50,729 nucleotides of DNA, taken from the NCBI GenBank assembly GCA_945862935.1, contig CAMBBO010000002.1:1-50729 (forward strand), read 5' to 3'. The notes under the pieces are model-generated. The model worked only from the letters and a program-made list of their open reading frames with translations, ran no database searches and had not been told where the DNA came from. This document shows positions 9,048 through 29,857 of the stretch, piece after piece; the stretch's first letter is position 1, and the number at the start of each line of letters is the position of its first letter. The position numbers were made by a program, and so were the translations under genes. The DNA is from Pseudorhodoplanes sinuspersici. Its GTDB lineage: Bacteria; Pseudomonadota; Alphaproteobacteria; Rhizobiales; Xanthobacteraceae.

Positions 9048-9127
9048 TGAGACGAGCCAGATACGAATGCTCGCAGTAATTCTGGAGCCCCGATTGCGGT
9101 CAGCTCGCTTTCGCCATTCACGGTCAT

Positions 9128-9769
9128 TCAAAACTGACGTTTCTTGGCTTTGTTTGCTGCAATCTTCTTCTGCAAATCGGACTGAAATTCACGGCGCTGT
9201 TTGGCAATCTCGTAAAGTACGATCCCGGAGGACGTACCCAAGTTCAAACTTTCGATAATTCCGTACATAGGAATGTTGATGCAGAACTCGCTTCTTTCGA
9301 TCGCAGTCCTGCTAATTCCAACACCTTCATTTCCAAACCAAACCGCTAATTTCCTGTATTTCGTATAATCATGTTCGTGCAGCACGACGTTGGTGCAGTT
9401 CTTGATGTGCGGTGACGTGACGGCGGAAACAAAACCGTTCTTCGTCAGATGATCCATGCAGAGATCAGTTGATTCGAAAGTTTTTACAAAACTCCACTTG
9501 ATTGCGGAGGCGGATACTGCACTCAGCTTTCGTTTGGTGCGCATGTCCTCCCACGTTTCAGGCAGGCTCTTGCGCTTGGTAACGATATAGGCTTTTTCGA
9601 CCCCGAGAGCATTCACGTTGCGAATGATTGTGCCGATGTTTCTTTCGTCATCAGGGTTTTCGATGACTGCAATCAGGTTTTTGCATCGGAAAGCCTTGAT
9701 CCTGTTGGCTCGCGCACGAAGCGTTGATTTAGACCTAATTTTGGGGCTTTCGCCGGGACCCTGTTTCAT
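9128..9769 (-). CDS. SpoU/TrmH-family RNA 2'-O-methyltransferase
   Basis: LIAVIENPDDERNIGTIIRNVNALGVEKAYIV, WFGNEGVGIS, IPMYGIIESLNLGTSSGIVLYE match SpoU motifs. Confidence 0.9.
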   Translation of the reverse strand: MKQGPGESPKIRSKSTLRARANRIKAFRCKNLIAVIENPDDERNIGTIIRNVNALGVEKAYIVTKRKSLPETWEDMRTKRKLSAVSASAIKWSFVKTFESTDLCMDHLTKNGFVSAVTSPHIKNCTNVVLHEHDYTKYRKLAVWFGNEGVGISRTAIERSEFCINIPMYGIIESLNLGTSSGIVLYEIAKQRREFQSDLQKKIAANKAKKRQF

Positions 9770-28313: not shown

Positions 28314-28814
28314 TCACGCGGCGCGGCGGATTTCATCGGAAGCTGCCCGGTAGGACAACGCTTCGGCGAGATGCACGCGGCCGACATGTTCCGCGCCATC
28401 GAGATCGGCGAGCGTGCGCGCCACCCGTAGTACGCGGTGATAGCCACGCGCAGAAAGCTGCATCGCATCGGCCGCGTCGCGCAGGAGCGTCAGTCCCGCA
28501 GCGTCGGGCTTGGCGATCTGTTCCAGCACGGCGCTCGCGGCCTGCGCGTTTGTCCGCACGTTGGGCATAGCGAGGGCAGCGTATCGCTCGGCCTGGATGT
28601 CGCGTGCCATTGCGACACGGGCTGCGACCTCACGGCTTCCTTCCGCGGGCGGTGGCAGAATGAGATCGGCCGCAGTGACGGCTGGTACGTCAATATGCAA
28701 GTCGATCCGGTCAAGCAAAGGACCGGAAAGGCGTCCTTGATAATCGGCGGCGCAACGCACATTCGCGCCGCGCTTGCAGATGTATCCGGGATCGCTCGCG
28801 TGCCCGCAGCGGCA
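28314..28814 (-). pseudogene. comM: C-terminal fragment of ComM/YifB Mg-chelatase-like helicase
   Basis: Frame reads CRCGHASDPGYICKRGANVRCAADYQGRLSGPLLDRIDLHIDVPAV...VARTLADLDGAEHVGRVHLAEALSYR; N-terminal AAA+ part missing, upstream frame non-homologous and closed by TAG. Confidence 0.85.
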
Positions 28815-28861
28815 AAATTTCGCATTAAATCTCGTTATCTCCGCAAAAACGGAGTGGATTC

Positions 28862-29041
28862 CTACCTATCAATCCCGCCCTTGCTGTCCTTGTCGGCTTG
28901 CTCGCGAAGCCCGCGCTCAAGGTCGTCTAGGGCCTGATCTGCCGTTTCCTTGGAGGCGGGCTTTTTGGGCGCGGGCGGCGTCTTGAGCATCCGCCGGAGG
29001 ACGTTGTCACGGGCTTCGTTGTCTTCGCGGCGCTTACTCAT
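28862..29041 (-). CDS. Short hypothetical protein (59 aa), highly charged
   Basis: MSKRREDNEARDNVLRRMLKTPPAPKKPASKETADQALDDLERGLREQADKDSKGGIDR*; just below the supplied ORF-track size cut-off. Confidence 0.5.
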   Translation of the reverse strand: MSKRREDNEARDNVLRRMLKTPPAPKKPASKETADQALDDLERGLREQADKDSKGGIDR

Positions 29042-29052
29042 GCGGGCCTCGA

Positions 29053-29075
29053 AAATTATGGTCCCACCATAATTT
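29053..29075. repeat. Perfect inverted repeat, 10-bp arms, 3-nt spacer, upstream of the 59-aa ORF
   Basis: AAATTATGGT-CCC-ACCATAATTT. Confidence 0.9.
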
Positions 29076-29122
29076 GTTCACGGACAGTGAAGTTTTGCGA
29101 ACTTTTCTGGGTCTAAGTCACG

Positions 29123-29410
29123 GCTATCCTTGGGATAGCTGGAATCCGCGCTTGCTGTATGGGGTGCAGCGCGGTGATTCTACTACCCCAGATTCGCGGG
29201 AAGGCGAGATCGGCTTTTAGGGCCGATCCCGCATTTCCGTTTGGGCCGGACAAGTGTGGGGGCGTGGCTTCCGACCCTGTCCCCCGAGGGTGCAAGTCCC
29301 TCCCGGTCCACCTTCTCCCCCCTTCCACAAGGGGGAGACTTCTCGGAACGGCTCCCTTCCATAAGGAGCCGCCTCTACCTGAGGCCAGTGGGGAAACCCG
29401 CTGGCCTCAG
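29123..29410 (+). ncRNA. Candidate structured RNA ending in a GNRA-capped terminator
   Basis: Successive hairpins at 29123-29139, 29142-29180, 29208-29228, tRNA-like module 29243-29312, 29314-29338, 29349-29371, 29379-29410; no plausible ORF. Confidence 0.4.
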
Positions 29411-29417
29411 CCGTTTT
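29379..29417 (+). terminator. Rho-independent-terminator-like hairpin
   Basis: CTGAGGCCAG-T-GGG-GAAA-CCC-G-CTGGCCTCAG (14-bp stem including one T.G) followed by ccgTTTT. Confidence 0.6.
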
Positions 29418-29592
29418 AGGGCAAATCGGCCTAGGCCAACTTGTCCTATACCAAATTGGTAATGTGCGTCGGGCGCACAGGGCAATGCGTTTCGCATAAC
29501 GGAACCAGAATTTCTGTTTATAGGAAAAATCCTATCTTGCCTCTTACCCTAGGGTACTCCGCTCTGGGTCGCCTCCTCGGTACGTCAAGTAC
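29417..29592. repeat. Ladder of consecutive short palindromes
   Basis: TAGGGCAA[GGCCTAGGCC]TTGTCCTA, TACCAAaTTGGTA, GTGCGtcgggCGCAC, ATGCGtttCGCAT, CAGAAtTTCTG, ATAGGAaaaaTCCTAT, TACCCTAGGGTA, GTACgtcaaGTAC. Confidence 0.7.
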
Positions 29593-29683
29593 ATAATCCC
29601 CGAAGACCGACAAGAACATTTGCAGAACAAAATATGTCGGCTAGGGTCGGCTCAGGGTGATTCGAAACTCGCTGGAGTCCACG

Positions 29684-29857
29684 ATGATCGACACAAATTC
29701 CATCCGCCACGAACTCGAAGAAGCCCGGAAAATCCGCCTGCGCGCACAGGCCGCGGGCCGCTATCTGGATGCGCTGGTGCGCCACATGAACCGCACCCGC
29801 AAGCCCTGGCAGCAATCCTTCAGCTACGGTCCGCAGATCGCGCTTTTGGCGAATTAG
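29684..29857 (+). CDS. Short hypothetical protein (57 aa)
   Basis: MIDTNSIRHELEEARKIRLRAQAAGRYLDALVRHMNRTRKPWQQSFSYGPQIALLAN*. Confidence 0.5.
   Translation: MIDTNSIRHELEEARKIRLRAQAAGRYLDALVRHMNRTRKPWQQSFSYGPQIALLAN

Follow-up and report, generated by a model that had tools for sequence, protein, structure and literature searches.

The window, the whole 50,729-nucleotide stretch of Pseudorhodoplanes sinuspersici DNA analysed here, contains a foreign segment (28812–29601) that bears a short alanine-type tRNA-like RNA, hereafter mini-tRNA, and probably represents the right-hand fragment of an IS1595-type transposon, a terminal inverted repeat (TIR) of that family lying at its right edge. To the left stands the 3' part of the host gene comM (28317–28811, minus strand), which shares 86% identity with the intact comM of a same-genus relative and lacks its 5' half (about 1.1 kb). 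To the right, just outside the transposon, is a host LexA-type box, GAAC-N7-GAAC (GAACATTTGCAGAAC; 29614–29628, plus strand), kept beside comM in five same-genus relatives. In such relatives an intact comM directly adjoins the LexA-box promoter and a small gene; the window retains the box and the small gene, but about 790 bp of foreign DNA replaces the first 1.1 kb or so of comM, host homology ending at about 28811 and resuming at about 29607. The site is therefore a scar and not a normal intergenic region; an earlier note made from this DNA had likewise spoken of a comM scar.

The same note had described 29053–29592 as tiled with hairpins to a density seen in no other intergenic region read in the window, and the observation holds. 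The minimum free energy (MFE) of the plus strand at 29050–29600 is -245.7 kcal/mol, far better than that of dinucleotide-shuffled controls (-195.2 ± 6.6; z -7.7), and the minus strand folds with z -6.9. Perfect hairpins that do not overlap (stem of 6 bp or longer, loop of 3–10) number seven, where shuffled sequences average 0.9 and, in 200 shuffles, never exceed 4, and none of 980 other 551-base intervals of the contig has as many paired bases, the runner-up, near 33 kb, having 6 hairpins. All the hairpins that the note listed, including one called tRNA-like at 29243–29309, are present in the MFE fold, and no convincing open reading frame (ORF) spans the stretch. Comparison with Rfam models, including tmRNA and alpha_tmRNA, gave no family at gathering score and nothing meaningful at E ≤5, and ARAGORN gave no match. 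Large non-coding RNAs (GOLLD, ROOL, group I/II introns) were rejected for want of a covariance-model match, and intrinsic terminators were ruled out on testing. No second copy of the stretch was found in the same genome, and phage and plasmid collections matched its DNA at chance level only. The proposal of an undescribed structured RNA thus stands for a tRNA-like part of 70 nt, of which diverged, covarying relatives occur elsewhere; the proposal of one large non-coding RNA of about 540 bp does not, as such relatives exist for this part only.

The mini-tRNA (29243–29312, plus strand) scores 84.3 bits with the covariance model of a family aligned in 23 members. Its members are about 70 nt long. 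An acceptor stem of 7 bp is joined to a mini D-arm of only 2 bp, an extended anticodon-like arm and, with no variable region between, a T-arm of 5 bp with a 7-nt loop, followed by A73 and CC or CCA. In the extended arm a lower helix of 5 bp (GGGGN/NCCCC) carries a short upper stem that ends in an anticodon-like loop. The window RNA has the acceptor stem GGGCCGG/CCGGTCC with G3·U70 and A73, the 3' end ACC, the mini D-arm ACAAGTGT (GCATAGTGC or GCAAGTGC in other members), the loop CTTCCGA in its extended arm and the T-arm GAGGG-TGCAAGT-CCCTC; 36 nt separate its acceptor from its T-stem, the distance being about 31–39 nt across relatives. Neither ARAGORN nor Rfam recognises a canonical cloverleaf in it. 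A missing or reduced D-arm and a compact L shape are shared with the D-arm-lacking mitochondrial tRNAs, from which the mini-tRNA differs in its occurrence in bacterial mobile elements, its conserved elbow contacts and its extended anticodon arm.

The first lead to this family was a single weak BLAST match in a relative (genome G020, locus L007), which fell on the tRNA-like hairpin; the surroundings in that relative are likewise rich in hairpins. Scans with the exact T-arm sequence led to viral contigs, Sphingomonas, Bosea and a proteobacterial metagenome-assembled genome, and with wider patterns and a covariance model the family grew to 23 sequences (the window and some 22 relatives). In their alignment 96.8% of cells are paired and compensatory changes occur in 17 of the 21 base pairs; the covariation score, which like the elbow counts below ignores relatedness among the sequences, is 0.508, as compared with 0.163 ± 0.017 after shuffling and at most 0.103 with slid partners. 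A MAFFT alignment not fitted to the structure gave the same outcome. At the elbow, G55 occurs without a D-loop GG in 11 of 11 sequences and U55 with GG in 10 of 10 (Fisher 2.8e-6, kinship ignored), a pattern consistent with a tertiary contact of A18 with G55 or of G18 with U55. By these computations, selection acts at the RNA level on a tRNA-shaped molecule.

Members of the family score 39.7–92 bits, and among 385 alphaproteobacterial genomes the covariance model found six matches of at least 45 bits, the window's own included, all others having the appearance of ordinary tRNAs and scoring at most 34 bits. That the window RNA is a degenerate pseudogene of an ordinary tRNA-Ala, to which its alanine identity elements and T-arm might point, is very improbable, as twenty-odd diverged relatives keep the short architecture with compensatory changes and the inspected tRNA-type matches of 74–90 nt score about 35 bits or less. 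The pattern GGGNNNNGCAAGNGCGGGG returned at least 120 stretches, among which no new members were recognised, and the remaining matches to T-arm and acceptor patterns were mostly phage tmRNA 3' ends or ordinary tRNAs. A 19-mer T-arm match in a Holophagaceae locus (L038) was rejected; it lacks the matching acceptor architecture and resembles a group II intron. In two loci, second tRNA-like sequences directly follow the mini-tRNA (L040, 2758–2840, seemingly with an 8-nt anticodon loop; L032, 6470–6552), possibly as small arrays of irregular tRNAs.

The acceptor stem carries a conserved signal for alanyl-tRNA synthetase (AlaRS), namely G3·U70 together with A73, in 22 of the 23 sequences, that of the window included. 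The wider search patterns required U70 and never G3, and the eight members (window included) that were first found by the T-arm alone, with no acceptor-stem requirement, all possess G3·U70 and A73. AlaRS identity is thus conserved across the family, and these elements point strongly to charging of the RNA with alanine. The anticodon-like loops (CTTCCGA in the window; CTTTCCA, TTGTCCA, CTTCTAA and others elsewhere) would read no alanine codon, and after charging the RNA might serve in translation-directed delivery, in recoding or as a decoy. As anti-defence cargo of mobile elements, such a decoy might draw off anticodon nucleases or toxins that target tRNAs. This would suit the distribution of the family in phages and transposons and its small, variable loops (TTC, GTC, TCT, TCC and others), but it leaves the retention of G3·U70 and A73 in 22 of 23 unexplained and is rather improbable.

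Two known classes of RNA come close to the mini-tRNA. The first is tmRNA, whose tRNA-like domain shares with it the AlaRS signal, a reduced D-arm, a helix placed directly against the T-arm without a variable region, and the T-loop TGCAAGT found in phage tmRNA 3' ends; the G-U third pair, invariant in tmRNA and a signature of that RNA, is the signal read by AlaRS (PMC3985003). A message-less tRNA-like domain might sequester SmpB, EF-Tu or stalled ribosomes, or effect rescue without tagging. This explanation is a doubtful one, for the mini-tRNA is a single piece of about 70 nt without an mRNA-like domain or a reading frame for a tag, its D-loop is different, and its arm ends in an anticodon-like loop where U33- and A38-like bases are frequent. 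Membership in tmRNA itself was rejected, no tmRNA or alpha_tmRNA model matching up to E 5 and only 36 nt lying between acceptor and T-stem. The unusual T-loop TGCAAGT, with G55, was seen in phage tmRNA 3' ends of L059, L063, L053 and other viral contigs, and in ordinary phage tRNAs (L096, L072, L089) whose D-loop seemingly has AG in place of GG.

The second class is that of the allo-tRNAs, non-canonical bacterial tRNAs with a synthetase identity discordant with the anticodon, some of them with G3:U70 (Mukai et al., 2017, as reviewed in PMC7609411); the UAU group is reported there as one that overlaps a transposon-related ORF and is inactive in translation. The mini-tRNA is likewise non-canonical, with a mismatch of identity and anticodon, G3·U70 and a link to transposons. 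In allo-tRNAs, however, the acceptor branch is 8/4 or 9/3 and the identity mainly that of serine, whereas the mini-tRNA has a 7/5 branch, alanine identity, a 2-bp D-arm and no variable arm. In a test of the branch, pair 49–65 (7/5) was present in 23 of 23 sequences, 8–65 (8/4) in 18 and 9–64 (9/3) in 6, and assignment to the allo-tRNAs, which the 8/4 or 9/3 branch defines, was rejected.

Several relatives of the mini-tRNA occur beside transposases. Pfam domains of IS1595-family (ISXO2-like) transposases lie near the RNA in L034, L313, L314, L316, L232 and L042; in L040 the neighbouring domain is that of an IS1 transposase. In seven loci TIRs and an exact 8-bp target site duplication (TSD) enclose the RNA, which therefore moves as cargo. 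These elements measure 4,520 bp (L034), 2,925 bp (L040), 3,805 bp (L232), 1,801 bp (L243), 2,048 bp (L313), 7,610 bp (L314) and 2,844 bp (L316); all except L243 hold a transposase and are complete IS1595- or IS1-type transposons. The element of L243 (5278–7078), a cassette of 1.8 kb, is bounded by IS1-like ends and flanked by an exact target duplication; it contains the mini-tRNA and small ORFs only, one of them of 266 aa.

At its right end the foreign segment has a TIR of the IS1595 family (PF12762/PF12760), to which IS1 is related (GGGGATTATGTACTTGACGTACCG, read outside-in; 29578–29601, minus strand), its left end being deleted; the elements that enclose the RNA elsewhere have TIRs, 8-bp TSDs and ISXO2-like transposases. 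In L316, L347 and L348 the IS1595 ends agree with this repeat in 18 of 22–24 positions, 0 of 150 shuffles being as good in each case, and host promoter sequence is back within a few bases of it. Two scans found the end motif elsewhere at L347–L351, with an IS1595 transposase inside the end in three. The mobile-element core suggested in the earlier note is thus mobile-element DNA, and probably the right-hand end of a transposon rather than a core.

The core sequence CCTTCCANAAGG, common to both hairpins right after the tRNA-like RNA, occurs in five copies in 589 kb of member loci searched on both strands (two in the window, two in L060, one in L062), always just downstream of the RNA and on its strand. 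The conjunction of RNA and CCTTCCANAAGG hairpins is thus met elsewhere only in contigs with terminase genes adjoining the RNA (L060) or a terminase-like gene (L062), and this favours a prophage remnant, with RNA and hairpins derived from intergenic phage DNA and an IS1595-like end that is coincidental or stems from a nested insertion. Such an origin is nevertheless unlikely: the TIR sits exactly where host homology resumes and is matched as well by none of the shuffles, three other sites of the end motif are IS1595 ends, and the foreign segment has no phage genes. In L060 the mini-tRNA (9127–9195, minus strand) lies antisense, immediately before the terminase genes of the phage contig.

We favour, with a probability of roughly 0.6, the reading that the region is what remains of the right-hand part of an IS1595-type transposon, with an alanine-accepting mini-tRNA as passenger; its left part and the 5' half of comM would have been lost at once. 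Several observations weigh against it. Only one TIR survives, the left end being deleted, and no IS1595 transposase was found in the segment or in the 87%-complete assembled genome; the transposon origin therefore rests on one 24-bp end, and the window is called a remnant and not a member of IS1595. Of 30 IS1595 transposase loci sampled from alphaproteobacteria, just 1 has the RNA, so that it is an occasional passenger; most sampled loci of the family lack a tRNA-like passenger, and the idea of IS1595 loci as its general carriers was rejected. The members L060 and L062 reside in phages without IS1595. One member, L316 (10122–10191, minus strand), has a glycine-type acceptor (G1–C72, C2–G71, U73), and odd C37-like bases and 8-nt loops speak against ordinary decoding. 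L316 nevertheless has the same arm as L037, which is alanine-type, the acceptor identity having apparently been swapped. No credible 8-bp target duplication pair was found in the window, as expected after a deletion.

On the favoured reading, an IS1595-type transposon would have inserted between comM and the LexA-controlled gene, and a single deletion from the interior of the element into comM would have removed the left end, the transposase, the target duplication and the comM 5' half. Given the fold, elbow, alanine identity and transposon context computed for the family, its mode of action may be pictured as follows. The transcript would be trimmed at the acceptor stem in the fashion of a tRNA, CCA would be added where not encoded, the D-loop/T-loop elbow would fold the molecule into a tRNA-like L, and the host AlaRS would charge it with alanine by way of G3·U70 and A73. 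The alanyl-RNA might then meet EF-Tu and the ribosome and, much as an allo-tRNA or the tRNA-like domain of tmRNA, deliver alanine out of code or occupy a tRNA site for the benefit of the element. It may be, however, that the copy in the window is by now a dead relic.

These results describe a new, covariation-backed family of tRNA mimics, short, poor in D-arm and of alanine type, which ARAGORN and Rfam have overlooked and which rides as a passenger in IS1595- and IS1-type transposons and in phages; in the open-access literature no previous account of such a passenger in IS1595 was found. If charged, its members would be alanyl-RNAs with non-alanine loops, either tools of mobile elements for bending translation or decoys for ribosomes or nucleases. 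It has been suggested before that there are irregular allo-tRNAs linked to transposons but without function, and defined intact elements make this testable.

In L037, L042, L260, L316, L232 and the phage contig L062 a gene of the same strand ends 38–44 nt before the RNA. The products in L037, L042 and L260 are clearly related. An AlphaFold model of the passenger protein shows long helices and a winged-helix-like part (mean pLDDT 70.5), and a fold search against the PDB gave a weak winged-helix resemblance (best E 0.05). The C-terminal tails DDVPF, DDEIPF and DEEIPF (L037, L042 and L260) and DDAIPW (L316) seem to resemble the C-terminal tip of SSB. It is conceivable, though unlikely, that transposons encode a ribonucleoprotein in which the mini-tRNA is the RNA half and the related coiled-coil and winged-helix proteins of L037, L042, L260 and L316 the other; an alanine-charged RNA in such a particle would couple transposition or regulation of the element to the translation or replication state of the host.

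The other hairpins of the plus strand surround the tRNA-like RNA on both sides. Upstream, the MFE fold contains a hairpin with a 10-bp perfect stem (29053–29075), a three-way junction domain (29096–29200) with hairpins at 29123–29139 and 29142–29180, and a hairpin GATCGGC/GCCGATC (29205–29231). Directly downstream follow a hairpin with the conserved core CCTTCCACAAGG (29314–29338), a core that occupies the same position in L060 and L062, and a second one with the core CCTTCCATAAGG (29349–29371), identified by core comparison across member loci; beyond them are a 14-bp hairpin with a GAAA tetraloop (29379–29410) and short hairpins tiled as far as the transposon end (29417–29556). For the fold of the 150 nt that follow the RNA, z is -7.4 in the window; in several other members it lies at about -3 to -6. 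Apart from the CCTTCCANAAGG pair and the tRNA-like RNA, no homologue was found for the hairpins, the 10-bp hairpin and the junction domain included. The good folds on both strands and the dense palindromes from the RNA to the TIR would also suit a DNA-level structure, such as a transposon end, an origin or a REP-like palindrome element; for the nest as a whole this is quite unlikely, as the tRNA-like part is strand-specific in its one-orientation G·U pairs, elbow covariation and alanine identity, but the hairpins outside that part could be DNA elements.

At the left of the segment, a 59-aa ORF (MSKRRED...VLRRMLKTPPAPKK; 28862–29041, minus strand) is a possible passenger gene, with a weak motif resemblance and the same divergent arrangement in L251; it has no Pfam match, and no relatives were found in phages. 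In the host DNA, a small ORF (29684–29857, plus strand) downstream of the LexA-type box is conserved in same-genus relatives and may be an SOS-controlled gene. The comM of another member of the genus (G007, L023) is broken by an apparent frameshift; a second insertion was considered there and rejected, the break being a frameshift only, and comM function may be eroding more widely in the genus.
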